Below, piece after piece: positions 1,092 through 58,231 of a DNA stretch of 64,000 bases. Below the pieces are notes generated by a model that was not told the DNA's origin, did not search any database, and worked only from the letters and a program-made list of their open reading frames with translations. A program made the translations under genes and the position numbers. The first letter of the stretch is position 1, and each line of letters begins with the position of its first letter. Source of the stretch: Fulvivirga maritima (GTDB lineage Bacteria > Bacteroidota > Bacteroidia > Cytophagales > Cyclobacteriaceae); NCBI RefSeq assembly GCF_021389955.1, contig NZ_CP089980.1, positions 3,157,001 to 3,221,000 on the forward strand, written 5' to 3'.

Positions 1092-2131
1092 GTAATACGC
1101 GAAAAAAAGTAGCAATTGTAGGAGCTTCTGGTTATACAGGTTCCGAACTCGCTCGTTTTTTACTGCATCACCCAGAGGTAGAAATTGCCATGATCACCTC
1201 TGAAACGCACGAAGGAAAGCCATTTTCTACTTTACATCCTCAGTTTACCGGGCAGCTTGATATGCCTTTGGTATCCGCACAAAGAGTAACTGATGAGCCT
1301 TTGGATGTTGTTTTTCTGGCATTGCCACACGGTGTTTCTATGAATTTTGTGATGCAATGGGCAGATAAATCATTTAAAATTATTGATCTCAGTGGAGACT
1401 TCAGGTTAAAAAACTCTGAAGTGTATGAGCACTGGTATAAGAAAGATCATAATTATGAAAAAGGATTTGATCATGCTGTATATGGATTGCCAGAGCTACA
1501 TAAAGATGATATAGTACAATCAGATTTGGTGGCTAATCCAGGCTGTTATCCTACTACTTCTACGCTAGGAGTAGCTCCATTGGTAGCCGAAAAACTGATA
1601 GATATAGAAGGCATTATAATAGATGCTAAATCAGGAATTACTGGAGCAGGTATAAAGCCTAGCCTTACCACCCACTTTTCTAATGTTAATGATAATTTCA
1701 AGGCCTATGGAGTAAAAAGTCATCGGCATACTATTGAAATAGAAGAGCAGCTAGGATTTCTTAATGAAGGAGAAGTGAAGGTTCAATTTACACCTCACCT
1801 GCTACCGCTAGATAGAGGAATACTGGCTACCAGCTATTCTACTCCACTAAACGACATGACCCAGGAAAAGCTGGACGATTTATACCAATCTTTTTATGAA
1901 GAAAAGCCATTTGTAAGGGTGAGAGAATCTTTACCTACTTTGAAAGACGTGAGAGGTAGTAATTACTGTGATGTGCACCCTGTGTGGGATGAACGTACTA
2001 ACAGAATAATGGTTTTTTCGGCCATTGATAATCTTGTAAAAGGAGCCGCAGGGCAGGCTATTCAGAATATGAACCTGATGCTTGGCTTTGAAGAAACCTC
2101 AGGCCTATTACTTAATCCATTGAAACCATAA
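1088..2131 (+). CDS. argC: N-acetyl-gamma-glutamyl-phosphate reductase
   Basis: NADPH-dependent reductase that converts N-acetylglutamyl phosphate to the semialdehyde. The dinucleotide-binding motif GASGYTG is near residue 12 and the catalytic Cys153 is in NPGCYPT. I place the start at ATG 1088, which gives the protein MSNTRKKVAIVGASG; the longer frame from 1061 would add nine unrelated residues and overlap argD deeply. The ATGA junction with argD (start ATG 1088-1090, argD stop TGA 1089-1091) supports this. About 347 residues, typical for the family. ArgJ follows after 24 bases. Confidence 0.95.
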   Translation: MSNTRKKVAIVGASGYTGSELARFLLHHPEVEIAMITSETHEGKPFSTLHPQFTGQLDMPLVSAQRVTDEPLDVVFLALPHGVSMNFVMQWADKSFKIIDLSGDFRLKNSEVYEHWYKKDHNYEKGFDHAVYGLPELHKDDIVQSDLVANPGCYPTTSTLGVAPLVAEKLIDIEGIIIDAKSGITGAGIKPSLTTHFSNVNDNFKAYGVKSHRHTIEIEEQLGFLNEGEVKVQFTPHLLPLDRGILATSYSTPLNDMTQEKLDDLYQSFYEEKPFVRVRESLPTLKDVRGSNYCDVHPVWDERTNRIMVFSAIDNLVKGAAGQAIQNMNLMLGFEETSGLLLNPLKP

Positions 2132-2155
2132 ACCAACAATACTATCGAAGATCAA

Positions 2156-3367
2156 ATGATTCAAAATATTACAAATGTAAAAGGTATCAAATGCTGGGGA
2201 GCACACACCGGAATCAAGTCTATGAGACGTGATCTGGCTATAATCTACTCAGAGGTGCCTTGTGCCGCAGCAGCTTGTTTTACCCAAAATAAAGTGCAGG
2301 CAGAGCCGGTGAAATTGAGTATTAAACACATGAAAGATAACCGGGCTCAGGTAATAGTATGTAATGCTGGTAATGCTAATGCATGTACCGGAGAGCAAGG
2401 CCGAATTGGAGCAGAAGCTATGGCTAATACTGTAGCTGAAGAACTAAAAATACCGGTAGAAGATGTGATAGTAGCCTCAACAGGGCTCATAGGAGAGCCT
2501 TTTCCTACTGATGATATTGTGAAGGGAATAAAAGAAAATATTCCTAAATTATCTAATACGGCCAAGGCAGGATCTTTTACTGCTAATGCTATTCTTACTA
2601 CAGATACTTTCCCTAAAGAAGGCTTTCTTGAATTTGACTGTGATGGCACTAAAGTAGCGCTGGGCGGCATGGCTAAAGGATCAGGTATGATTCATCCAAA
2701 CATGGCTACTATGCTGTCTTTTGTGGTTACGGATATTAATATAGATGAGAAATTACTGGATGAAGCGGTAAAGTACTGTGTAGAGAGAACTTTTAATATG
2801 ATTACTGTAGATGGTGATACTTCTACTAATGATATGGTGGCAGTATTGGCAAACGGTCTGGCTGGTAATAAGAAGATTAAAACCAAAAGCGATCCTAACT
2901 ATCAGCTGTTTAGAGAAAAGCTTATGCAGCTGCTTACACACCTGGCCAAATTAATTATCTCTGATGGCGAAGGTGCCTCTAAGTTTATAGAGTATAAAGT
3001 TACTAAGGCCAGAACTGAGAATAATGCCAGAACTTTAGTGAAAGCGATCTCTGATTCTACACTAGTTAAAACGGCTATGTTTGGCCGTGATCCTAACTGG
3101 GGGAGAATAATAGCTGCCTGCGGTAATGCTGGCGTTCCTTTTGATTATACCAAGGCCGATTTATACATTGGAGATAATAGTAACCTGGTGCAGGTGCTTA
3201 AGAAAGGATCTCCTGCAGATTATGATAAGGCATATATAAAGAAACTGCTGAGAGAATCTCACATCCGTATAGTCCTGGAGCTACATAAGGGTAGTGAAGA
3301 GAGCACAGGTTGGGGCTCAGACCTTACTACAGATTATGTGATGTTTAATTCAGTATATACTACCTAA
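2156..3367 (+). CDS. argJ: Bifunctional glutamate N-acetyltransferase / amino-acid acetyltransferase
   Basis: ArgJ moves acetyl groups from N-acetylornithine to glutamate, closing the cyclic arginine pathway. It is made as one chain and cuts itself between Ala184 and the nucleophile Thr185 in the conserved PNMATML motif. GNANACTGEQG (about residues 72-82) and the C-terminal FGRDPNWGRI block are also typical. The 403-residue length is standard. It is the last gene of the argD-argC-argJ run and is followed directly by a strong hairpin. Its presence implies an acetylated cycle rather than the succinylated route known from some Bacteroides. Confidence 0.95.
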   Translation: MIQNITNVKGIKCWGAHTGIKSMRRDLAIIYSEVPCAAAACFTQNKVQAEPVKLSIKHMKDNRAQVIVCNAGNANACTGEQGRIGAEAMANTVAEELKIPVEDVIVASTGLIGEPFPTDDIVKGIKENIPKLSNTAKAGSFTANAILTTDTFPKEGFLEFDCDGTKVALGGMAKGSGMIHPNMATMLSFVVTDINIDEKLLDEAVKYCVERTFNMITVDGDTSTNDMVAVLANGLAGNKKIKTKSDPNYQLFREKLMQLLTHLAKLIISDGEGASKFIEYKVTKARTENNARTLVKAISDSTLVKTAMFGRDPNWGRIIAACGNAGVPFDYTKADLYIGDNSNLVQVLKKGSPADYDKAYIKKLLRESHIRIVLELHKGSEESTGWGSDLTTDYVMFNSVYTT

Positions 3368-3378
3368 ATAAAAGCAAA

Positions 3379-3411
3379 ACAGCCACTGGTACTAATCTTC
3401 CCAGTGGCTGT
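3379..3411. terminator. Bidirectional terminator between argJ and the convergent gene
   Basis: Perfect 11-bp stem: ACAGCCACTGG (3379-3389) pairs with CCAGTGGCTGT (3401-3411) around an 11-base loop. A-rich sequence lies on one side and T-rich on the other. It sits between convergent stop codons. Confidence 0.85.
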
Positions 3412-3420
3412 TATTCTAAA

Positions 3421-3786
3421 TCAGAAATACTTTTTGTAATTATCTTCATCTTGCCAAAATTCACGACACTTTTGTATCTGTTCTTCTTTAAAGTGTTCGT
3501 CATTTTTCAATTCTTTCCATTCTCCATAACCCAGCTGCTCGGCTAGTTTATAGAAACGGTCTCCTTGTCCATTCTTTTTATCCTGAACCATTACACTGAT
3601 GAGCGGGCGATCTTCCTCATGCTCTTCTTCTGAAATCTCATCCAGAATAGTTCCTAAAAGTTGTTTCTCATGTTTAATGTCAAGGTTAAGGCCTAGCTCA
3701 GTAGTGTTGATCAATCTCCTGTAGGAAATAGGAGCACTATCTGTTCGGGCCAATTGGATTAGCTTATTTCTTACTCTCGAATTCAA
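3421..3786 (-). CDS. Small conserved-looking protein of unknown function
   Basis: A 121-residue soluble protein without signal peptide or membrane segment. The N-terminal part (RNKLIQLARTDSAPISYRRL) looks helical and winged-helix-like. It is followed by an acidic patch (EISEEEHEEDRPLISVMV) and a C-terminal stretch with GDRFYKLAEQLGYG. The pattern ISY..L then RPLIS and FYKLA recalls small proteins found near DNA-processing genes, but I cannot name the family. It ends at the terminator shared with argJ and is probably monocistronic. Confidence 0.6.
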   Translation of the reverse strand: MNSRVRNKLIQLARTDSAPISYRRLINTTELGLNLDIKHEKQLLGTILDEISEEEHEEDRPLISVMVQDKKNGQGDRFYKLAEQLGYGEWKELKNDEHFKEEQIQKCREFWQDEDNYKKYF

Positions 3787-3856
3787 ACTTTTTTAGATCT
3801 TGTTAAACAAAAAATAATAGCCAATTTTAAGAAAAATTAAAATTTTTAGCCACTTA

Positions 3857-4654
3857 CTAGCTACTAATGTGCTCAGAAACTTTGTGAATCAGATGGTTAT
3901 GAGCAGATTTTATTAAAACTATTTTATAATCGGTGATTTTTTTAATAAGCGGCTGCATATGTTGGGGTGTAATTACCTTATCTAAAGTGCCCAGATAAAA
4001 AGTCACTGGGATGTGGTTTTTAGTTAACAAATGGCTGATTTTCTTCATCTTAAATTTTAGGTGAGAAAATACTATCCATGAATAATATACCCTTTTTCTT
4101 TTCTCTAAGCTGTCCATTTGGCTGGCAGCGAATTTTGATAAGCTGCGATCAATAAATTTTAATTTTTCTGCCGTTCTAAGAATGCTAAAAAAAAGTTGAG
4201 GCTTCTGTATCATACTTTTAAAAACCTTCTTTAAACCTATAGGAGATGTGGCTAACTGATACCAAATATTAGGTTTAATGCCATCAGGAGCAATAAATAT
4301 CAGTTCTATAATTCTTTCTGGAATGGCCTCTAGTGTGGCAAGTACAAATTTAGCTCCTATGCTAAAGCCCATCAGAGCTACTTCTTTAATTTTAAGGCTA
4401 GCGAGGAAAGCAGTTATTATTTCTGCCCATATAGCTTTGCTAAGCGGAGTATCTTCATGAGACCAATAACTATTGCCATGAAAAAATAAATCAAAGCTAT
4501 AAATGGTAAATTCTTTGCCTATAATATTAGCCATTGGTCCGAATGCACGACCGTTCTGACCAAAACCATGAAAAGCCAGCATCACTTTTTCGCCACTGCC
4601 GTAAGTGTAATAGTTAATTTGATGCTCCTTAAAATGGAAATTGTTCTCAGTCAT
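3857..4654 (-). CDS. Alpha/beta hydrolase
   Basis: A single-domain alpha/beta hydrolase of about 265 residues. The oxyanion region AFHGFGQNG, the nucleophile elbow GFSIGA (Ser nucleophile), an acid in LGTLDKVI and a late His in SAHNHLIH give a complete triad in the expected order. I prefer the start MTENNFHFKE at 4654; the frame extends to 4681 but the extra nine residues resemble no signal peptide. The substrate cannot be told from the sequence. It is divergent from the sigma factor gene starting at 4721. Confidence 0.82.
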   Translation of the reverse strand: MTENNFHFKEHQINYYTYGSGEKVMLAFHGFGQNGRAFGPMANIIGKEFTIYSFDLFFHGNSYWSHEDTPLSKAIWAEIITAFLASLKIKEVALMGFSIGAKFVLATLEAIPERIIELIFIAPDGIKPNIWYQLATSPIGLKKVFKSMIQKPQLFFSILRTAEKLKFIDRSLSKFAASQMDSLEKRKRVYYSWIVFSHLKFKMKKISHLLTKNHIPVTFYLGTLDKVITPQHMQPLIKKITDYKIVLIKSAHNHLIHKVSEHISS

Positions 4655-4720
4655 AAGGCAAATCAAAAAAAAAGTAGGCACTTATAAAATATTTTATAAA
4701 ATCATACGACTACAGTAGGG

Positions 4721-5302
4721 ATGTCAGTTGATGATTCAATATCGATAAATATTCATATGGTGCAAAGTCAGCAAGAGACCATAGAAAAAGAGAGAGGAAG
4801 GCTTCTCAGTTTTATTCGTGCCCGTGTGAATAATGTGGAAGATGCTGAAGATATATTGCAAGATGTACTATACCAGTTTGTAGATGGGTATGGCACCATT
4901 CGCTCTATAGAAAAGGCTACATCTTGGCTGTTTCGGGTGGCCAGAAATAAAATCATAGATTCTTATCGTAAGCGCAGTGTCCGGTCTGATAACGTGAAAC
5001 TGGATCAGGTAGGTTATGATAATGAAGATGGTAGTTTAATGTTAAAAGATATTCTGCCAGATATAGAAGACACTCCGGAGGAGATACATTTTAGAGAAGT
5101 AATTTGGGAAGCTATTAATGTCGCTCTCAATGAGCTTCCTGCTGAGCAAAGAGAGGTTTTTGTACTTCATGAATTTGAAGATCAGAGCTTTAAAGAAATA
5201 TCAGCCAAATTGGATACACCTGTGAATACCCTCATTTCGAGGAAAAGGTATGCCATTTTAGCACTGAGAAAGAAATTAGAAAATTTATATAAGGAGTTAT
5301 AA
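4721..5302 (+). CDS. ECF-type RNA polymerase sigma factor
   Basis: A sigma-70 family protein of the extracytoplasmic-function type, 193 residues. Region 2 carries DAEDILQDVLYQFV and the core-binding and melting stretch TSWLFRVARNKIIDSYRKR. Region 4 carries ELPAEQREVFVLHEFEDQSFKEIS and the recognition helix near the C-terminus. A possible alternative start is the internal ATG at 4757. The next gene begins two bases after the stop, so the small membrane protein is almost surely co-transcribed and is a candidate regulator, though it has no recognisable anti-sigma domain. Confidence 0.9.
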   Translation: MSVDDSISINIHMVQSQQETIEKERGRLLSFIRARVNNVEDAEDILQDVLYQFVDGYGTIRSIEKATSWLFRVARNKIIDSYRKRSVRSDNVKLDQVGYDNEDGSLMLKDILPDIEDTPEEIHFREVIWEAINVALNELPAEQREVFVLHEFEDQSFKEISAKLDTPVNTLISRKRYAILALRKKLENLYKEL

Positions 5303-5304
5303 TT

Positions 5305-5643
5305 ATGAGACCAGGAAAGGGAAAGAAAATAGCCTTGGTAATATTAGCGGTGCTAGCTTTTATAGCACTGTTTGGTTACATTGTAATGACTTTGTGGAAC
5401 TGGCTTGTGCCTGATTTATTCAACGGCCCCACAGTTACCTATGTACAGGCTATAGGATTGCTCGTATTATGTAAATTACTTTTTGGAGGCTTTCATGGCA
5501 AAGGCGGACCTAAAGATAGGTGGAAAGAAAAATGGAGGAGCATGAGCCCCGAGCAGCGAGAAGGATTAAAGCGGAAATTTGCTGCTAAATGGAAATGCGA
5601 TTCTCACCAAAAAGAACCCACAGATTCAGCGGAGAAGTGTTAA
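5305..5643 (+). CDS. Small membrane protein coupled to the sigma factor
   Basis: 112 residues with a short basic N-terminus, a first membrane segment at about 9-33, a second at about 44-62 that includes a glycine-rich LFGGFHGKGG, then a charged cytosolic-type tail with MSPEQREGLKRKFAAKW. The tail resembles the helical motifs of CpxP/Spy-like proteins (MTPEERE pattern). It lies two bases after the sigma factor, which suggests a role in holding or modulating it. Function is inferred from context only. Confidence 0.75.
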   Translation: MRPGKGKKIALVILAVLAFIALFGYIVMTLWNWLVPDLFNGPTVTYVQAIGLLVLCKLLFGGFHGKGGPKDRWKEKWRSMSPEQREGLKRKFAAKWKCDSHQKEPTDSAEKC

Positions 5644-5758
5644 TTATTGGGTGATGTTAATGTTTTGTTATTAAACCAGAATTTTCTTCATCCTGAACCC
5701 TGGAAACTATTTAAATATTAAAAGTTTCTTTAGTTTCGCGATAAAATATAGATGACCT

Positions 5759-6388
5759 GTGGATACTAGAGAACGGATATTAAGAGAAGGAACTACATTA
5801 TTTAAAAAGTATGGGGTGAGGAGTGTTACCATGGATGATATAGCTAAGGAGTTATCTATTTCTAAAAAGACTATTTATCAATTTTTTAAGGATAAAGATG
5901 AAATAGTAACCATAGCCATGCAGGATTTTGTGGAGCAGGAAAAGGCAGAGTACATCGCGGTGGTGGATGAGGTGAAAAACGCGGTGGAGGAGCTAGCCAT
6001 GATAACTAAGTGTATAAGGGAAGACTTTGATGATATAAACCCTTCTTTGATTTTTGATTTACAGAAATATCACCCTAAAGCGTGGGACATTATAAAGGAG
6101 TTTAAAAACAATTTTTTAAGAAAGGCTCTGGTAAGAAGTATTGAAAATGGAATAGAAGAAGGGGTTTTTAGAGATAATCTGGATCCTGAAGTGATGGCCG
6201 TGCTGAGGGTAGAACAGATCAATATGGCTTGCGATCATCAGCTATTTCCATTGGATAAGTTTAGCATTTACGAAACACATATGAAGTTACTAGATCATTA
6301 TATAAGCGGTATAGTAACAGATAAAGGCAAAGAATACTATAATAATTTTTTACAACAAATAGATATACCAACCACAAACCACCATTGA
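5759..6388 (+). CDS. TetR/AcrR family transcriptional regulator
   Basis: Typical TetR repressor of 209 residues. The helix-turn-helix is at about residues 20-50 (GVRSVTMDDIAKELSISKKTIYQFF), followed by an all-helical ligand-binding part. The start is GTG at 5759; the nearby ATG at 5752 is out of frame. It opens the efflux operon, with the TolC-like gene beginning two bases after its stop, so it most likely controls its own transcription together with the pump genes. Confidence 0.9.
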   Translation: MDTRERILREGTTLFKKYGVRSVTMDDIAKELSISKKTIYQFFKDKDEIVTIAMQDFVEQEKAEYIAVVDEVKNAVEELAMITKCIREDFDDINPSLIFDLQKYHPKAWDIIKEFKNNFLRKALVRSIENGIEEGVFRDNLDPEVMAVLRVEQINMACDHQLFPLDKFSIYETHMKLLDHYISGIVTDKGKEYYNNFLQQIDIPTTNHH

Positions 6389-6390
6389 TA

Positions 6391-7740
6391 ATGAGATTTA
6401 AATTAAGTTTTGTTCTTGGACTTATGCTTTTAACAGGGCTGGCCAGGGCTCAGGAAGATACCCGGGTGGCTTTTTCGTTAGAGGAATGTATTGACTATGC
6501 TATGCTGCATAATCAGAATATTCTTAATAGCGCTATAGACAAGGAAATAGCTGATACCCAGGTAGGTGAGACCTTAAGTGAAGGACTGCCACAGGTAAAT
6601 ATTAATGCCGGTGCTAATTATAATTTCGAACCACAAAAATCTTTGCTTGATGTGAGCACTTTTGATCCGAGCATACCTCAAGGAAATGAGGAGCCAATAT
6701 CATTCCAGCAGAAGTATGATGGAAATGTGGCTGTAAGTGTAAGGCAACTCATTTTTGATGGTTCCTTTTTTGTAGGCTTACAAGCTTCTAAAACCTATAA
6801 GGAACTCTCTACTAAAGAGTACATTAAAACAGAAATAGATGTAGTGGAAGCTATATCTAAGGCTTATTATAATGTGCTGGTTAGCGAAGAAAGGCTGGCA
6901 CTCATTAAAACCAACTATAGCAGAGTAGATACCATGCTGTATGAAACCAGCGTGATGTTAGAAAATGGTTTTGCCGAAAGAATAGACGTAAGCAGGCTAA
7001 AGGTGCAGCATAATAATTTAAAAGTGGAGTTGGAAAACACAGAGAAGCTTTTGGATCTTAGCCGTGATATGTTGAAATTTCAAATGGGTATGTCTTTGGC
7101 TCAGCCCATAGAGCTTACTGATAAGCTTGAGGAGGTGGTATTTGAAGATCCTTCTACAGAGGGTGATTTTAATTATGCCAATAGAATAGAATATTCACAG
7201 TTACAGACCAATGTAGCATTAGCACATTTAGACTTAAAAAATAATAAGATTCAATATGTGCCTACTTTGTATGCTAACTTTAACTATGGTTACAATACTC
7301 AAACCAGTGATTTTGATTTATTATTCAAAAGTGAGCGATGGTTAAATTATGGTCTGTTGGGGCTGTCATTAAACATCCCTGTGTTTGACGGATTCCTGAA
7401 GAGTAACAAAATTCAAAGAAATAAGCTGGAGATTAAACAGCTCAATAATTCATTCGAACAACTAGAAAATTCCATAGATCTGGAGATAAAAGAAGCCAGC
7501 ATAAATATGGAAACGTCTCTAAAGCAGATGCAGGCTCAGAAAGAGAACATGGAGCTGGCTGAGGAGATTTATGATGTAACAAGCATAAAATTTAAAGAGG
7601 GAGTAGGATCTAATCTGGAGGTAGTGGAAGCCGAAGCAGATTATAAAGAGGCCCAAACCAATTATTACAATGCATTATATGATGCTTTGGTAGCCAAAGT
7701 AGAGCTAGAAAAAGCTTATGGCCAACTACACAAGAACTAA
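6391..7740 (+). CDS. TolC-family outer-membrane efflux channel
   Basis: Outer-membrane component of a tripartite exporter. Signal peptide MRFKLSFVLGLMLLTGLARA, then the OEP repeat opening with FSLEECIDYAMLHNQ, long coiled-coil stretches (about 200-230 and 350-440), and beta segments near NGNVAVSVRQLIFDG and LSLNIPVFDGFL. I use ATG 6391; the TTG at 6385 would only add two residues. The MFP gene follows directly, and its ATG lies 31 bases after this stop. Confidence 0.9.
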   Translation: MRFKLSFVLGLMLLTGLARAQEDTRVAFSLEECIDYAMLHNQNILNSAIDKEIADTQVGETLSEGLPQVNINAGANYNFEPQKSLLDVSTFDPSIPQGNEEPISFQQKYDGNVAVSVRQLIFDGSFFVGLQASKTYKELSTKEYIKTEIDVVEAISKAYYNVLVSEERLALIKTNYSRVDTMLYETSVMLENGFAERIDVSRLKVQHNNLKVELENTEKLLDLSRDMLKFQMGMSLAQPIELTDKLEEVVFEDPSTEGDFNYANRIEYSQLQTNVALAHLDLKNNKIQYVPTLYANFNYGYNTQTSDFDLLFKSERWLNYGLLGLSLNIPVFDGFLKSNKIQRNKLEIKQLNNSFEQLENSIDLEIKEASINMETSLKQMQAQKENMELAEEIYDVTSIKFKEGVGSNLEVVEAEADYKEAQTNYYNALYDALVAKVELEKAYGQLHKN

Positions 7741-7771
7741 AAACCAACCCATTTTTGAAAACAAACCAGAC

Positions 7772-8938
7772 ATGAGAAATACAGCATTTTATTACTTAGC
7801 CATCATTACATTGCTTTTTGCAGCCTGTAGTAAAGAAGGGCTGGAGGCAAAGAAGGAGCAGCTTCAGTCTTATAAAGATGAGGTGCGTGAGCTTAATACT
7901 AAGATCAAAGAACTGGAGACCGAGATAGCCGCGCTAGATTCAACTTATGGTGTTGAAGAAGGAAAAGCCATTTTAGTAAATACCAAGGTGGTGAAAGCTA
8001 CTGACTTTAAGCATAAAATAGAGGTAAGAGGTTCTGTTGAGTCTCGCAGAAATGTAATGCTTACCTCAGAAACAGCCGGAACCATAGAAAGTGTGAAGGT
8101 GAGAGAAGGCCAAAAAGTGAGTGCCGGTCAAACGCTGATAGTGCTAGATGCAGATATTTTAAGAAATAACATAGCTGAGCTTAAAACTTCACTTGAGCTG
8201 GCCAAAGTGGTTTATGAAAGACAAGCCAATCTTTGGGAAAAGAAGATAGGTACTGAAATTCAGTATTTGGAGGCTAAAAATAATAAAGAAGCAATTGAGA
8301 GAAGGTTAGCTACCGCACATTCTCAATTAGACCAGGCAGTGGTTAAGGCTCCGTTTGCCGGTGTAATAGATGAGTTGCCTGCCAGAGAAGGAGAAATGGC
8401 TCAGCCAGGAGTGGATTTAGTTAGGGTAGTAAGCCCTGAAATGATGTACATCGATGCTGACGTTTCAGAAAGATATATCTCAGACTTTAAGGTGGGTGAT
8501 GAAGTAGATCTTTACTTCCCGGTTCAGGATAAGCATATCACCTCCAAAATATCAGCAGTAAGTGAGGTGATTAAAAGTGATAACAGAACATTTTCTATTG
8601 AAGTAAAACTACCTAAGCTGGATTTCCCGGTAAAGCCTAATCAGGTGGTGGTTCTGGAGTTAACTGACTATGAAGCAGAGTCTGCTTTAGTGGTGCCTAC
8701 AGAAATTATCCTTTCTGATGGTGATGATAACTTCTTGTATACTGCTGAAGATGAAAATAATAAAACGGTGGCCAAAAAGACTAAAGTGAAAGTGGGTGAA
8801 AGCTATGATGGTGTTACCGAAGTGAAAGAAGGTCTAAAGCAAAATGATATTGTAGTAATAGAAGGTTACCGAAGCTTAAGTGATGGCGTAGCCGTAAAAG
8901 CAGCCGATAAATCAACTAAAACAGCTCAATTAAAATAA
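7772..8938 (+). CDS. RND efflux membrane fusion (adaptor) lipoprotein
   Basis: HlyD/AcrA-type periplasmic adaptor. Starting at ATG 7772 gives the lipoprotein signal MRNTAFYYLAIITLLFAACS with the lipid-bearing Cys in a clear lipobox; the upstream start at 7718 would bury this signal. A coiled coil at about residues 22-55, barrel-sandwich hybrid halves around GTIESVKVREGQKVSAGQTL and VKAPFAGVIDELPAREGEM, and a beta-barrel domain follow. It lies between the channel and pump genes, as expected for an adaptor joining the two. Confidence 0.9.
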   Translation: MRNTAFYYLAIITLLFAACSKEGLEAKKEQLQSYKDEVRELNTKIKELETEIAALDSTYGVEEGKAILVNTKVVKATDFKHKIEVRGSVESRRNVMLTSETAGTIESVKVREGQKVSAGQTLIVLDADILRNNIAELKTSLELAKVVYERQANLWEKKIGTEIQYLEAKNNKEAIERRLATAHSQLDQAVVKAPFAGVIDELPAREGEMAQPGVDLVRVVSPEMMYIDADVSERYISDFKVGDEVDLYFPVQDKHITSKISAVSEVIKSDNRTFSIEVKLPKLDFPVKPNQVVVLELTDYEAESALVVPTEIILSDGDDNFLYTAEDENNKTVAKKTKVKVGESYDGVTEVKEGLKQNDIVVIEGYRSLSDGVAVKAADKSTKTAQLK

Positions 8939-8949
8939 AGCTTGCTGGT

Positions 8950-11900
8950 ATGTCAGACATCAACACTAACAAAAATAACCAACCAATAAACGGAGATACG
9001 AACTCTGAAAAGGAGTTTGGGCTTACCAAGCTATCCCTCAATAACAGGAATACGGTTTTCTTCCTCCTGTTTTTGGTAGTGATTATGGGTATTTCTGCCT
9101 ATATCAACTTGCCAAAAGATAGCTATCCGGAAGTGGAGCAGCCGATGGTTTATGTAGGTACTACTTACCTGGGTAACTCACCGGTAGATATAGAAAACCT
9201 TATTACCAGACCGCTGGAAAAGGAGATTAATGATATTTCTGAAATAGACAATATTAAGTCTACCTCTGTGCAGGATTATTCTACCATTATAGTAGAGTTT
9301 GAACCTGATATGGATATAGATGATGCGCTTCAGAAGGTAAAAGATGCCGTAGATAAGGCCAAGCAAGAGCTTCCTAATGATTTAGACACAGATCCGAATG
9401 TGTTTGAAATGGACTTTTCTGAAATGCCTATCATGAATATTAACCTCTCAGGAAACTTCCGGGTAGAGAAATTAGAAGATGTGGCAGAAGACCTGGAAGA
9501 TGAGCTTGAAAAAATTAGCGAAGTATCTTCTGTAGAAATAAGAGGGGTAGATGATAAGGAAGTGAAAATAATGGCTAATCCATACCTGATGGATGCTCGC
9601 CAGGTAAGTTTCTCAGACATTACTCAAGCCGTGCAGGCAGAGAATGTTACTTTTTCTGCTGGTAATATTAAAGAAGGAGATGTAAGAAGAACCATTAGGG
9701 TAGTGGGAGAATACGAAGATCCTAAAGACATGCTGGATATTGTAGTAAAGCATGAAAATGGTAATATCGTATACTTAGGAGATGTAGCTAAGATAGAATT
9801 TGATTATGTGGATCCTGAGAGTTATGCCAGGCTTGCCCTTAAGCCTGTTGTTTCAGTAGATGTGATCAAAGGAAGTGGAGAAAACCTGCTTATTGCTACT
9901 GATAAGATTAATGAGGTGTTAGAAGAAATGAGACCTCAGTTTCCTGAAGGTTTAGAAATAACTATTACCAATGATCAGAGTCAGATGACCAGAGATCTGG
10001 TAAATAGCCTTGAAAACAATATCATTTCTGGGGTTATCCTGGTAGTGTTGGTATTGTTATTCTTCTTAGGTACCAGAAATGCCCTGTTCGTAGGGGTCGC
10101 CATTCCGGTGTCTATGTTTATTACCTTCCTAATTATGAGTGCTTTAGGTATTACCATTAATATGATGGTGCTTTTCTCACTCATCCTGGCGCTGGGTATG
10201 TTAGTAGATAACGGTATAGTTATCGTAGAAAACGTATATAGGCTTATGGAAGAAGGGCTTTCTCCCTGGGAAGCTACTAAGCTCGGTGTTAGTGAGGTAG
10301 CCTGGCCTATCATTACTTCTACGGCTACTACATTAGCGGCCTTTTTACCATTGGCTATGTGGCCGGGGCTTATGGGGCAGTTTATGAGGTACCTTCCTAT
10401 TGGGGTTATGATCACACTTTCCTCATCACTTTTTGTGGCATTGGTTATTAATCCTGTATTAATATCAGTGTTTATGAAAATAGAAGATGGTAAAAAGCAG
10501 GATCATACCAAAGTGCTTAGAAATACAGGAATCTTCGTGCTCCTTGGGACCATATTTTTAGTGCTTGGAGCTACCTGGTTAGGTAATTTGCTGGTATTCA
10601 TAGGCTTGCTTATTCTATTGAATGTATATGTACTGATGCCTGCCAGTCGTAAATTCCAGTCAGGATTCTTACCTTGGTTAGAAAATATTTATTCAAACAC
10701 GTTGGCCTTTGCACTTAAAGGTTATAGGCCTTGGTTGTTCTTCTGGGGAACGATATTCTTATTGATTTTATCAGTAGTACTTAATATGGTGAGCCCTCCT
10801 AAGGTGTTATTCTTCCCTGAAAATTTACCTAAATATGTAAATGTATTCATTGAATTCCCGATAGGAACCGATATAGAAAAAACGAACAGCTTCTCTAAGC
10901 AGATAGAAGAGAAAGTGCTGAAAGTGGTAAATCCTTATGGTGATGTGGTAGAATCAGTAATTGCTAAAGTGGGGCAAGATACAGGCGATCCTAATGATCC
11001 TTCCTCATTCGGTTCTACAGATACACCTAACAAATCTCGTATCACGGTGAACTTTGTGGAGTTTAAAGACAGACATGGAGTGGATACCAGAGAGATTATG
11101 GATAGTATAAGGCATGCAGTAGATGGGTATCCGGGTGTATCTATTTCAGTAGATAAAGATGCCGCCGGTCCTCCGGTAGGTAAGCCTATCAATATTGAAG
11201 TGTCAGGAGATGATATTGCTACCTTGATAGCTATTACTGATAGAATGAAAAACTTCATTAATGAATCAGGAATTAAAGGAATTGAAAACCTACAGACTGA
11301 TTTAGAAACAGGTAAGCCTGAACTTTTGGTGAATATTGATAGAGATAATGCTCGCCGTTTCGGTTTATCAACCAGAACCATTGCGAATGAAATAAGAACC
11401 GCGCTTTTTGGTATGGAAATCAGTAAGTTTAAGCAAGGTGAAGATGATTATGAAATACAGCTAAGGTTACAAGATGAATACCGATATGATCTGGAAGCTC
11501 TGAAAAACAGAGAAGTAACTTTTAGAGATCAGAAGGGGCAATTAGTACAGATTCCTATTAGCTCAGTGGCAGAAATGAAGTTGAGTACTACTTATGGTTC
11601 TGTAAAAAGAAAGGATTTAGAAAGAGTAGTAACGCTCTATTCTAATGTGCTGCAAGGCTACAATGCAACTGCTATTAATGCCGAAATACAGGAGTTATTG
11701 CAGGATTTTGAAATGCCCGCAGGTTATGACTTCAAATTTGGTGGTGAACAGGAGAAGCAGGCTGAAGAAATGGCCTTCTTAACACAAGCATTATGGCTGG
11801 CAGTATTTATTATATTCCTGATAATAGTGGCGCAGTTTAATAAGATCACTACTCCGGTTATCATCATGTCTTCTGTGGTGCTGAGTACGGTAGGGGTGTT

Positions 11901-52974: not shown

Positions 52975-54213
52975 ATGAACAAACAAGAGAAAGAAGAATT
53001 AAAGGAAAAAGCACTTAAACAATTTTTAAAAGGAGAATCTCTATTTGGTAAGGATGGGGCTTTCAGCCCCATGTTGAAGGAGTTCTTAGAAGAAGCTCTG
53101 GAAGCAGAAATGGAGGATCACCTATCCAGTGAAGAAAAAGGACGCTCTCATGGCAATAAGCGCAATGGCAAAGGCCAGAAAACAGTTAAGAGTAGTTTAG
53201 GAGACGTTGAGATAAATACTCCTCAAGATCGTCATAGCAGCTTTGAGCCAAGAATAGTAGAGAAACGCCAGCGTATACTGGCAGACAATCTTGAGAAGCA
53301 AATAATAGCCATGTATGGGCTAGGTAATAGTTTGAGAGATATTCAAGAGCACATCAAGGAGATGTATGACACAAATATATCAACAGAGGTGTTAAGTGAT
53401 ATCACAGACCGAGTGATCCCTAAAGTAAAGGAGTGGCAAAATAGGCCATTAGAATCGGTCTATTGTATTGTTTGGCTAGATGCCATGCATTTCAAGGTGC
53501 GAGATGAAGGTAAGGTGAAGCATAAAGCCCTTTATAATATTTTAGGGATCAATAAGCAGGGCAACAAGGAGATATTGGGCATGTACCTATCAGAAAGCGA
53601 AGGAGCTAATTTTTGGCTTCAGATACTTACTGAGCTACAAAATAGAGGCTTGAAAGATATTTTGATAGCCTGCACTGATAACTTGAAAGGTTTTAGTGAA
53701 GCGATACACTCCATCTACCCACAAACAGATGTTCAACTTTGTGTAGTTCATCAGATTCGAAATAGCTTGAAATATGTAGCCAGTAAAGAACAGAAAGTGT
53801 TTATACAAGATCTTAAATTAGTTTATCAAGCAGACACAAAAGATCAGGCAGAGACTGCTTTATTAGAACTGGAAGAAAAATGGGGAAAGAAATATCCTGT
53901 GGTGATACGATCTTGGAATGATAACTGGGAACTACTTAGCACTTATTTCGATTACAGTAAACCCATAAGAAAGTTAATATACACTACAAATCCAGTGGAG
54001 GGCTTTCATAGACAAGTAAGAAAAGTTACCAAGAGTAAGGGAGCATTTACCAGTGATATGGCCTTGATGAAATTAGTTTACTTAGTTTGCAGACGTATTG
54101 AGAAAAAATGGACTTCACCTTTGCGGAATTGGGGTTTGACGGTGCAGCAATTAGCCATTAGATTTGAGGGAAGATTGGAACTGGAACTAAAAACCAGTCA
54201 AACCAAAAAATAA
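52975..54213 (+). CDS. IS256 family transposase
   Basis: 412-residue mutator-type DDE transposase. Catalytic residues appear as Asp169 in VWLDAMHFK, Asp235 in IACTDNLKGF and Glu342 in TTNPVEGFHRQVRK; CVVHQIRNSLKYV between them is the family's HQ-RNS block. The N-terminal half carries the DNA-binding helices (LKEFLEEALEAEMEDHLS). The length is normal for the family and no lesion is seen. Confidence 0.95.
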   Translation: MNKQEKEELKEKALKQFLKGESLFGKDGAFSPMLKEFLEEALEAEMEDHLSSEEKGRSHGNKRNGKGQKTVKSSLGDVEINTPQDRHSSFEPRIVEKRQRILADNLEKQIIAMYGLGNSLRDIQEHIKEMYDTNISTEVLSDITDRVIPKVKEWQNRPLESVYCIVWLDAMHFKVRDEGKVKHKALYNILGINKQGNKEILGMYLSESEGANFWLQILTELQNRGLKDILIACTDNLKGFSEAIHSIYPQTDVQLCVVHQIRNSLKYVASKEQKVFIQDLKLVYQADTKDQAETALLELEEKWGKKYPVVIRSWNDNWELLSTYFDYSKPIRKLIYTTNPVEGFHRQVRKVTKSKGAFTSDMALMKLVYLVCRRIEKKWTSPLRNWGLTVQQLAIRFEGRLELELKTSQTKK

Positions 54214-55071: not shown

Positions 55072-55139
55072 TCCAATCCATTACAAATATTTACCAAGAG
55101 ACTTGACTAATAGAGTACACCCCTCAAAGTCATCCTGAG
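55072..55139. repeat. Left half of repeat copy 1, cut by the IS110-type element
   Basis: Matches the central part of the repeats at 57347-57499 and 58270-58412: TCCAATCCATTACAAATATTTA and CTTGAC...GTACACCCC...CATCCTGAG. It breaks off at 55139 in the loop of the palindrome. The rest of the copy resumes at 56727. Confidence 0.75.
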
Positions 55140-55189
55140 ACCTAACATTTGTTTCAACCGCACAAAAAGAAATGACGTTAAGAATAGAA

Positions 55190-55365
55190 GTGGCCTGTAC
55201 AATATAGCCGAACCTGGCATAGTGCAATTTGCCTGTCCCTGAGCATGGTTGGATAGAAAGGAGTCACAAAGTATGGTACTTCCTTGTTTTTATAGGAATG
55301 TCCGATTGGTAGTCTGTCGTGTACAATATTTCATCCTACAGGTCTTTGTTTAACTTTTAGAATAT
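55190..55365 (+). ncRNA. Putative bridge RNA of the IS110-type element
   Basis: In the leader, ATTGGTAG (55305-55312) equals the right end of the element (56721-56728), and AGGTCT (55340-55345) is the reverse complement of AGACCT at the left junction (55138-55143). These would be the left and right donor guides, in the order known from IS621. Upstream, CCTGAG (55238-55243) equals the left target flank. For the right target guide only GAGT (55261-55264) fits. A hairpin AAGTA-TGG-TACTT (55269-55281) separates the two guide regions. RNA ends are estimates. Confidence 0.45.
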
Positions 55366-55370
55366 TAGTC

Positions 55371-56690
55371 ATGAAAAAGATGAGAGCAAATGCTGCAGGC
55401 ATAGATATAGGAGCCAAGCACATTTTCGTATCCGTGGAAAACAAGGATGTTCGTGTTTTTGAGACTTTCACTGAAAGTTTTAAAGAGGCATCGTGTTATT
55501 TATTATCAGAGGGGATCGAGACAGTGGCCATGGAAGCCACCGGCGTTTACTGGATCATCCTTTATGAGATCCTAGAATCAGCAGGTTTAGATGTCTGGTT
55601 AGTAGATGGGCGCCAGACAAGACAAGTACCAGGTCGAAAGACTGATGTAAAGGACTGTCAATGGATTCAGCAACTTCATAGTCATGGCTTATTGAATCGC
55701 TGTTTTGTTCCCGATGCTCAAGTGAAGGAAGTTCGTGCTTACCAGCGGTTGCGAGAAGATCATCTCAGAACAGCCTCTATGCATGTAAACCACATGCAAA
55801 AGGCGCTAATAGAGATGAACATCCGGCTCAAAGAAGTGCTCAGTCAGATATATGGCGCCAGTGGTCTGGCGATCATAGAAGCCATCCTGGCAGGGGAACG
55901 TGATGCCCAAAAGCTCTTATCCCTGTGCCATAGCAGTATTAGAGAAAAGAAAGCCTCTCAAGTCATCAAGGCACTTTCAGGCTATTATACCGAGTCAGGG
56001 TTATTTGCTTTGGGACAGGCATACGGTGGTTACAAATTTTATAAACAACAAATACTGGCATGTGACCAAAAACTGGAAGAAGTCATGAAGCGGTTCAATA
56101 ACTACGATTCAGATATGGAAAGCAAAAATGAAATAGATTCTGTCAAAGATCGAAAACCTGTTAGACATAATAAACCTGATATAGACCACTTAGGAGGACA
56201 CCTGCTCAAAATCTTTTCAGGCAAAGATGCTACGTGTTTACCGGGTATTACCGATTATACCTGGCTACAATTGTATTCTGAAATAGGCATGGAACTTTGT
56301 AAGTGGCCCAGCGAGAAACACTTCACTTCATGGCTAGGATTATCTCCAGGTCAACACCAGTCTGGCAAGAAAAATAAAACCAGAAACAGAAAGTACAGGC
56401 CAAAGGCAGGACAAATATTCAGACAAATAGCCCAAAGTTTAATAGAAAGCAAAAAGATAGCACTGGGAGCTTTTGGGCGTAGATTGAAAAGCAAAAGAGG
56501 TCCAGGCATAGCCACTAAAGCTACCGCCCGAAAACTGGCCGTACTCTACTGGCGGCTTATGGTAAAAGGGCTTGATTACACAGAACGGGGCATCAAAGCA
56601 TATGAAGAAAAAATGCAGCTCCATAGGGAAAGATGGCTAGTAAAAACAGCTAAAGAATTAGGTTATGAGCTTGAACAAATACCTATTTAG
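55371..56690 (+). CDS. IS110 family transposase (bridge-RNA-guided recombinase type)
   Basis: 439 residues. RuvC-like DEDD domain with Asp12 (GIDIGAKHIFV), Glu55 (AMEATGVYW), Asp92 and Asp95 (GRKTDVKD). C-terminal Tnp domain with CLPGITDYTWLQLYSEIG and the catalytic Ser331 in GQHQSGKKNKT. A helical linker lies between. Full length with no lesion, so probably active. IS110 enzymes recombine DNA with a bridge RNA made from their own leader. Confidence 0.95.
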   Translation: MKKMRANAAGIDIGAKHIFVSVENKDVRVFETFTESFKEASCYLLSEGIETVAMEATGVYWIILYEILESAGLDVWLVDGRQTRQVPGRKTDVKDCQWIQQLHSHGLLNRCFVPDAQVKEVRAYQRLREDHLRTASMHVNHMQKALIEMNIRLKEVLSQIYGASGLAIIEAILAGERDAQKLLSLCHSSIREKKASQVIKALSGYYTESGLFALGQAYGGYKFYKQQILACDQKLEEVMKRFNNYDSDMESKNEIDSVKDRKPVRHNKPDIDHLGGHLLKIFSGKDATCLPGITDYTWLQLYSEIGMELCKWPSEKHFTSWLGLSPGQHQSGKKNKTRNRKYRPKAGQIFRQIAQSLIESKKIALGAFGRRLKSKRGPGIATKATARKLAVLYWRLMVKGLDYTERGIKAYEEKMQLHRERWLVKTAKELGYELEQIPI

Positions 56691-56728
56691 TGTATTACGT
56701 CATTGGTAGTGTATTACGTCATTGGTAG
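56691..56728. repeat. Two tandem 19-bp copies at the right end of the IS110-type element
   Basis: TGTATTACGTCATTGGTAG occurs at 56691-56709 and again at 56710-56728, directly after the transposase stop. Each ends with the donor sequence ATTGGTAG, so the element has two equivalent right ends. Confidence 0.85.
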
Positions 56729-56764
56729 GCACTCGAAGGATGGACTTTCTGCAGGCTGAGAGTG
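56727..56764. repeat. Right half of repeat copy 1
   Basis: AGGCACTCGAAGGATGGACT followed by TTCTGCAGGCTGAGAGTG matches the 3' half of the intact copies with one change. Together with 55072-55139 it rebuilds a copy split by the IS110-type element. Confidence 0.8.
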
Positions 56765-57499: not shown

Positions 57500-57752
57500 G
57501 GTTTGTTGGATTGGAGTTACAAGCTATTGATGATTGGAAGGTGGAGTATGTTCGAGTCGATCATTTATGATTACATAAAAGGCAGAGTTAAATAAAATAA
57601 ATACCATTACTAGCCAGAAATGGTGTTTGTAAAATAGCCAAGTAGATGCTCCATATGAGTGAGCAATTAGAACGAATATTTTAGATAGTTATGTGTATAC
57701 CAATCATTTAAATTGGCAGGGAAAAATGATAAATAATCGTTATTTTGCAGTT

Positions 57753-57950
57753 ATGAATATAGAAGCTAGAAAATATCATTTGATAGAGAGGTTGATGAAG
57801 TGTGATGAAAATGAGTTGAGAAAGATTGAGATTTTTCTAGAGCAGGAATCCGCTCTGTCGGCATCGTTGGATAGGTCTTTAAATCAAGTTCAGGAAGGTA
57901 AGGTTATTTCGCATGATCAGGTAAGGAAGAAATATGAGAAATGGCTTTAG
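57753..57950 (+). CDS. Putative antitoxin of a type II toxin-antitoxin pair
   Basis: 65 residues from ATG 57753 (MNIEARKYHLIERLMKCDEN); the frame continues to 57693 but the added part has no antitoxin character. The sequence is helical and acidic, ending in LNQVQEGKVISHDQVRKKYEKWL, similar in shape to small Bacteroidota antitoxins paired with RelE/ParE toxins. No classic DNA-binding fold is obvious. Its end overlaps the toxin start by 10 bases, which supports the pairing. Confidence 0.75.
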   Translation: MNIEARKYHLIERLMKCDENELRKIEIFLEQESALSASLDRSLNQVQEGKVISHDQVRKKYEKWL

Positions 57951-58231
57951 AAATTGTTTGGACTGAAGAAGCCAGTGAAGGACTCGATGAAATCATTAAT
58001 TATTTAGAAAGGAAATGGACTCAAAGGGAGATCAAAAGATTCTTTGTCAGGCTTGAAGACTGTTTGGAGAAAATATGTAGAGCACCGCATCAGCAGAAGG
58101 ATTCCTTAAGAAAGCCAGGAACAAAGGAATACCAGCATTCACCTCACACAACCATATTTTATACTTACGATGATAGAGTGGTAAATATTTTAAGAATATG
58201 GACCAATATGAAGAATCCCAGTAGTATGTAA
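57941..58231 (+). CDS. RelE/ParE family toxin
   Basis: 96 residues with the fold pattern of the RelE/ParE superfamily: IVWTEEASEGLDEIINYLERKW at the start, a central basic segment (KDSLRKPGTKEYQHSPHTTIFYTYDD) and the final strand VVNILRIWTNMKNP. ParE members block gyrase and RelE members cut mRNA; the sequence does not decide between them. Translation is coupled to the antitoxin. Confidence 0.85.
   Translation: MALEIVWTEEASEGLDEIINYLERKWTQREIKRFFVRLEDCLEKICRAPHQQKDSLRKPGTKEYQHSPHTTIFYTYDDRVVNILRIWTNMKNPSSM

Follow-up and report, generated by a model that had tools for sequence, protein, structure and literature searches.

Bridge RNAs are under development as programmable tools for DNA recombination. 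The present analysis concerns a candidate RNA of this kind in the leader of an IS110-family insertion sequence (IS) of Fulvivirga maritima, which lies in a stretch of 64,000 nucleotides (nt) of the single contig (NZ_CP089980.1, positions 3,157,001 to 3,221,000; hereafter the window) of a 6.39 Mb genome, and is one of 12 copies of the element there. Three systems, as far as the accessible parts of the published texts describe them, invite comparison. IS621 (PMC11208160, PMC11208158) combines a recombinase of the DEDD + Tnp type with a leader RNA upstream of the gene, in which target and donor have separate loops and the left guides have the sense of the left halves. In IS1111 elements (PMC11187229) the seekRNA is found downstream of the gene, the transposases have 330–350 amino acids (aa), and a subterminal inverted repeat (sTIR), usually of 11–13 bp, leaves extensions of 7 bp on the left and 3 bp on the right; in the same paper Siddiquee et al. 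describe the top-strand complement as coming first in IS1111, with the reverse order in IS110. ISEc21 and its relative ISMch6, of the IS110 group (PMC11187229), have an upstream seekRNA and provide a published case in which related elements, with transposases that are 72% identical, have been naturally redirected, three guide bases being altered.

The locus studied here resembles IS621 in all of the features named, with the difference that its left guide, which in IS621 is on the 5' side of the loop, stands 3' of the apical hairpin, that donor and target have an A alone in common, and that right guides are not established. With IS1111 it shares an sTIR, although one of 7 bp with extensions of 33 nt (left) and 5 nt (right), and, if the segment called V below is a guide, also the precedence of the top-strand complement over the bottom-strand match, whereas its RNA lies upstream of the gene and its recombinase has 439 aa. 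Since the left guide stands 3' of the hairpin and the RNA upstream of the gene, the element combines, in its predicted RNA, the IS110 position with an IS1111-like place of the left guide. ISEc21 and ISMch6 have the upstream RNA and the redirection in common with it, but their guide order is reversed, ISEc21 is not matched by our RNA model R1, and their redirection is not one between copies in one genome, of which no case was found in the literature searched (open-licence papers, text without figures). To judge from the accessible text, one of the six diverse RNAs in PMC11208160 may already have a structure of this kind.

Guide letters and target sites

We consider it very probable that the leader encodes a bridge RNA acting with the IS110 recombinase, and that a change of guide letters retargets the element between classes of sites resembling repetitive extragenic palindromes (REPs). 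REPs as IS targets were described in a 2006 report, as far as its accessible text goes (PMC1525189). The profile PF01548 matches the whole genome 12 times, and all 12 copies were fetched and compared. The other 11 are 97.3–99.9% identical to the window copy; the unit measures 1568–1570 nt, starts with ACCTAAC, preceded by AG, and ends with GTCATTGGTA in 12/12 copies. The window copy is set in a repeat and has an open DEDD recombinase gene (PF01548, PF02371), which agrees with the IS110-family assignment made in an earlier note on this DNA. That note had set the ends with the help of intact copies of the repeat nearby; another repeat copy is indeed present nearby, but the right end had been placed 19 nt too far, because a second 19-nt right-end repeat (56709–56727) exists in this copy only.

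The same note had proposed CCTGAG as the guide for the left target flank. This motif is found at 55238–55243, and the longer CCCTGAG corresponds to the left target half. The variable letters of the guide (55237–55240) are CCCT in ten copies and TGTC in two, designated d2 and h. The sites of the ten CCCT copies read TCCT, GCCT or CACT, each with a match of 3/4, and copy h occupies the site GTCATGTCGA with a match of 4/4, where CCCT would score 0/4. Between the window copy and h all four guide letters are different; elsewhere the two differ at one of 205 aligned positions plus two gap columns. Another genome, G007, has two copies with the guides TGCT and CCTT at the sites TGCT and CCTT, respectively, with three differences in the guide vs five in 205 positions elsewhere. 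Near-identical copies differing in their guide letters make such apparent natural retargeting readable from the DNA.

Relatives were collected from 390 genomes of the family (34 matching at E 1e-60, own genome included), from class and order samples and from 30 named loci. In 25 element-target pairs the left target guide matches its own target at 84/100 positions, vs a permutation mean of 43.6 (0/20,000 permutations as high), and all four letters match in 11/25; these pairs represent 25 of 27 elements (L042 and L075, cut by contig ends, were dropped) and include W and h of one genome as well as L084 and L085, which have one leader. Eleven later pairs, read by hand, gave 35/44 matches vs 17.7 expected (0/20,000 permutations as high) and five full matches; no usable left flank or guide was taken from L049/L146/L191/L192, L052, L053, L132, L159, L162/L188, L163/L189 and L187, and neither L177 and L178, which repeat the L045 leader, nor L182 and L183, which begin inside the RNA, were counted. 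The donor guide, for which the earlier note had proposed ATTGGTAG, matches the right end at 92/110 positions in 22 elements vs 75.4 expected (0/20,000 permutations), with L083, mis-picked by the script, counted against. For the unusual donor guide ATAAGCAG of L041, the matching right end GTCATAAGCA was found afterwards by searching for it. The leaders of relatives co-vary with their targets and right ends, a check that the note had suggested, and this bears out both left guides as matches beyond chance. In L186 (genome G280) and L173 the guide is TAGGTAG in a GTCATAGGTA site, and co-variation there extends to the letter preceding the exchange A, with T in place of G.

The left flank reads GTCA-N4-GA in 11/12 copies of the own genome. 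GTCA itself is found in the left flank of 12/12 own copies and of 8/8 copies in G036, a related genome with an identity of 95% in the protein and 91% in the DNA, with ends set by copy comparison; its constancy in the relatives' pairs (24/25) is biased upward, because the GTCA..GA motif partly served to place left ends in single-copy relatives. On the right, the copies are flanked by the right half of a REP-like palindrome, which belongs to class A (GGCACTCGAAGG type, six copies), class B (GCCCCGTCGAAG, three copies) or class C (CGAAAGGAGAC type, two copies); copy e2 has element sequence there. Class C half-sites number 33 in the genome at up to three mismatches (control: 1). Empty class C sites read GTCATGTCGA/CGAAAGG (20/33 viewed; the stroke marks the junction), and the occupied ones read TCGA/GACC left of h and GGTA/C right of d2 and h. 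In G036 the left junction is CGA/G in 8/8 copies and the right junction TA/C in seven and TA/A in one. The earlier note had expected a core dinucleotide AG; with GA/C in class C sites and TA/G in the donor no dinucleotide is common to both, and the class C and G036 junctions therefore leave, as read from these flanks, one A that donor and target have in common at the exchange point.

The own genome contains 29 sites with GTCATTGGTA followed by G or C, vs 10 for the reversed pattern. Fourteen of them are element right ends, nine further ones terminate a common spacer of ~105 nt after a REP of class B, and one more forms the left flank of d2 (loci L197, L200, L202, L212, L217, L219, L220, L222, L223 and L224). 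The non-element sites look like scars of element loss between GTCAT in the target and GTCAT in the right end, or like a donor-like half-site class.

With the ends, the exchange point, the RNA structure, the catalytic residues and the co-variation of the two left guides with target and right end shown from the sequence, we infer a course of events that includes expression, circle formation, a choice of the strand that pairs, and catalysis. The leader would give rise to a bridge RNA working with the recombinase, and excision would, by analogy with IS621, turn the element into a circle. One loop of the RNA would offer CCCTGAG to the left target half, a second loop would present ATTGGTAG to the right end as it is joined in the circular form, and strand exchange at the common A would yield ..GA/G-element-GGTA/target. 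A change of the four variable target-guide letters would direct the element to another class of REP palindromes, as appears to have occurred in this same genome.

Leader RNA and recombinase

The leader measures 232 nt and lies upstream of the gene; ~20 nt remain after the stop codon. Its structure was derived with RNAalifold from 26 leaders, with one helix placed by hand (Table 1). The consensus comprises 34 pairs in five helices, with double changes in 25/34 pairs; 89.2% of 871 cells are paired, vs 72.9% in shuffled alignments and at most 47.2% when the alignment is slid. In 14 distinct further sequences (all but one outside the training set; L154 repeats the training leader L045) 90.3% of cells pair, in an alignment fitted to the model. 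The covariation in 26 sequences thus predicts a structured RNA upstream of the gene, as in the IS110 group, and the conserved, co-varying leader structure that the earlier note wished to see is found. Its IS621-like layout of the guides is not, as the left target guide is located 3' of the apical hairpin Pb, i.e. on the 3' and not the 5' side of its loop; the donor guide follows 3' of the second hairpin.

Model R1 gave 12 RNA matches in the own genome, one for each of the 12 genes, and matched 19/390 genomes of the family sample (E 0.001, strict filters) and 6/20 relatives outside the training set. It found no match in 14 relatives of 35–38% identity. At the place of the left arm of the sTIR, ATGAC or TGAC is kept in the relatives aligned.

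The recombinase matches PF01548 (61 bits) and PF02371 (44 bits) over cut-off, and NF033542 with 213 bits. D12, E55, D92, D95 and S331 are invariant in 16 relatives; together with G323, P326 and G332 they form a set that is invariant or nearly so, the serine being part of a GxxPxxxxSG motif. A sequence search of the PDB revealed no match at E up to 1. Viral contigs likewise yielded none. The AlphaFold model (mean predicted local distance difference test, pLDDT, 77.4; predicted template modelling score, pTM, 0.61; pLDDT <50 in parts that contain some of the catalytic residues) has IS621 (8wt6; Foldseek E 1.2e-8, TM 0.33–0.46) as its best match, followed by ISCro4 (9t56), and the predicted fold is that of the recombinase in the solved IS621 complex.

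Table 1. Features of the IS110 element and its flanks, in positions of the window
Feature	Position	Strand	Basis
Left target half GTCATCCTGA, left arm of REP-like palindrome	55129–55138	+	flanks of 12 copies, empty sites
Canonical IS110 element, 1570 nt; junction A ambiguous on either side	55139–56708	+	ends of 12 copies compared
ATGACGT, left arm of 7-bp sTIR (partner 56697–56703)	55172–55178	+	read from sequence
Bridge-RNA candidate (model R1 extent; helices 55192–55346)	55182–55362	+	covariation; model match 141 bits
Outer helix P1, 5' strand	55192–55200	+	hand-placed helix, covariation
Target-loop stem Pa, 5' strand (partner 55246–55250)	55206–55210	+	covariation
Variable segment V, place of putative right target guide	55211–55219	+	right-target pairing in 5 non-Bacteroidota elements; no more than chance in 24 from Bacteroidota
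Apical hairpin Pb of target loop (TAGTGC..GCCTG)	55220–55235	+	covariation
Left target guide TCCCTGAG; variable letters 55237–55240	55236–55243	+	guide-target co-variation
Target-loop stem Pa, 3' strand	55246–55250	+	covariation
Helix P2, 5' strand (partner 55331–55337)	55251–55257	+	covariation
Hairpin Pc before donor guide	55275–55303	+	covariation
Left donor guide ATTGGTAG, matches right end	55305–55312	+	guide-right-end co-variation
Helix P2, 3' strand	55331–55337	+	covariation
Helix P1, 3' strand; contains AGGTCT 55340–55345	55338–55346	+	covariation
IS110 recombinase, 439 aa (PF01548, PF02371)	55371–56690	+	profile matches, residue conservation, structure model
ACGTCAT, right arm of sTIR	56697–56703	+	read from sequence
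Right end GTCATTGGTA (left donor half)	56699–56708	+	12-copy ends, donor-guide comparison
Extra 19-nt right-end repeat, this copy only	56709–56727	+	absent from other 11
Right target half of REP-like palindrome	56728–56764	+	flank comparison

Relatives outside the phylum

A tblastn search matched 390 plasmid records, and six relatives and one relative of ISEc21 were fetched from plasmids. Model R1 matched 2/7 of these, from Nostoc (E 2e-11) and Caballeronia (E 2e-4), and found no match in 4/6 plasmid relatives, in ISEc21 or in the ISEc21 relative. The Nostoc locus (L243; Nostoc sp. C052 plasmid NZ_CP040275.1, 65500–77000, reverse complement, 1667–9051) contains IS110 elements of three types, six in all, arranged head to tail as 1-2-3-1-2-3. 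Each of the six target guides matches 6–7 of 7 letters immediately left of its own element, and in five cases what the guide matches is the preceding element's right end. The two members of type 3 are 347 nt long, with the RNA present and no recombinase gene; by its look, this type is an RNA-only satellite. In the Caballeronia element L239 the target guide matches 7/7. A plasmid of Caballeronia sp. SBC2 (NZ_CP049319.1; L227 and W01) carries identical IS110 copies in tandem; there the neighbour's right end forms the left flank, and the guide is mismatched to it (4/7). Donor guides outside the phylum match the right ends 7/7 in the six elements checked. GTCA is absent from the matching Nostoc and Caballeronia left flanks, except for TGACA in one.

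Right guides, competing explanations and neighbouring features

Right guides were sought by a column scan, by local complementarity in 26 and 32 windows, where the same sense was scored as well as the complement, and in fixed register (12 tests). AGGTCT, which the earlier note had taken for a guide complementary to the left junction, is present at 55340–55345, but it forms part of the conserved helix P1, on its 3' strand, does not co-vary with the left end, and is unchanged in a 91%-identical relative whose left end is ACCGAAC; it was rejected as a right donor guide. The right target guide suggested at GAGT or, alternatively, at AGTGC (55221–55225) was not supported: GAGTC belongs to a block conserved in nearer relatives despite their different targets, and AGTGC is paired within the hairpin Pb. 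A same-sense match of 8 nt, GAAAGGAG, between the leader and the right flank of h is ascribed to chance, because this leader block is identical in copies with other targets.

There is, in our judgement, a little less than an even chance that the RNA is fully two-sided as in IS621 or IS1111, V (55211–55219) working as the right target guide and its counterpart for the donor having been missed. V faces the left guide across the apical hairpin, and in five Nostoc and Caballeronia elements it pairs with right-target bases 1–7 at 27/35 places (14, 11 and 12 at other shifts); however, four of these five have one assumed flank in common, and p is 0.19 when the five are permuted among themselves. In 24 Bacteroidota elements the same register is at chance level (45.9/168 vs 43.0 expected). 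The score of V in Bacteroidota (z 2.36, p 0.015) is one of 26 windows, with a same-sense control window above it (z 2.70), and eight copies in G036 have one leader type at V and varied right flanks. The lowest p values were 0.0067 (same-sense window) and 0.0036 (all 29 elements, shift 0), and the shift-2 register yielded p 0.0054 on all 29 elements and 0.29 on Bacteroidota alone; with so many tests none of these values is firm, and V as the right target guide is a lead, not proof. Rather unlikely, though worth stating, is a one-sided RNA in the Bacteroidota clade, which would read the left halves of target and donor only, with the fixed GTCA read by the protein. One common A would then suffice, four-letter changes would move lineages between REP classes, and relatives elsewhere, such as the Nostoc array with its 347-nt RNA-only members, would follow this left-guide code when inserting at one another's right ends. 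Such a one-sided target code, if true, would be simpler to reprogram and less specific.

The retargeting itself could be an illusion, if ordinary mutation produced the TGTC guide and its match to the site of h is a matter of chance, or if d2 and h go back to one event. The two copies do represent one lineage, as they have 55218T and identical four letters in common, two guide changes per lineage would suffice because a near relative carries CCTC, and the guide of d2 mismatches its own flank. We nevertheless regard this explanation as improbable, as h matches 4/4 where the other guide would match none, G007 provides a second case, and guides follow targets in relatives. Hardly credible is the proposal that the leader acts on the gene as a structured regulatory 5' untranslated region, while the protein alone selects REP sites: the leader does immediately precede the gene, all three target classes are REP-like, and leader regulation by small RNAs is described for ISPpu9 in the accessible text of PMC8450116, but nearly identical proteins are found in different site classes according to four leader letters, and the donor guide follows the right end.

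Several observations weigh against the favoured explanation, a bridge RNA whose guide letters direct the element. The guide of d2 matches 1/4 letters of its left flank, GTCATTGGTA, which has the letters of a right end; in L046, L084, L050, L190 and L129 only 2/4 guide letters match, and in the Caballeronia tandem copies L235 and L237 only 4/7. The permutation tests do not correct for kinship, and the partly motif-based placing of single-copy left ends has been mentioned above. A search of Rfam gave no match. Of the folding proposed in the earlier note, the alignment of 26 leaders yielded a conserved structure, while the window leader folded singly was no better than shuffles (z +1.47, +0.83). 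Across 25 elements and 32 windows no leader segment tracks the left end (the highest z for complementarity was 2.07), and in this clade neither the 26-window scan nor the fixed register detected a right target guide. The bridge-RNA reading of the note thus stands with regard to both left guides and the conserved leader structure, and falls with regard to AGGTCT as the right donor guide, the AG core and the IS621 layout. If a bridge RNA is indeed encoded here, this branch would provide near-identical copies whose guides have changed naturally within a single genome, a left guide in another position and a one-base overlap of donor and target, and the evolution of guides and the emergence of RNA-only satellites would become testable.

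The duplicated 19 nt at the right end of the window copy (56690–56727) sit between two TA/G and could be due to slippage or to exchange at a second TA/G; a doubled right end of a similar kind was observed in the Caballeronia copy L235. About 0.9 kb upstream of the element lies an open reading frame of 412 aa (52975–54213), which by its look we take to encode an IS256-type transposase. Downstream, at 57693–58231, two overlapping small open reading frames presumably encode a toxin-antitoxin pair of the ParE/RelE type, judging by the look of the second protein.
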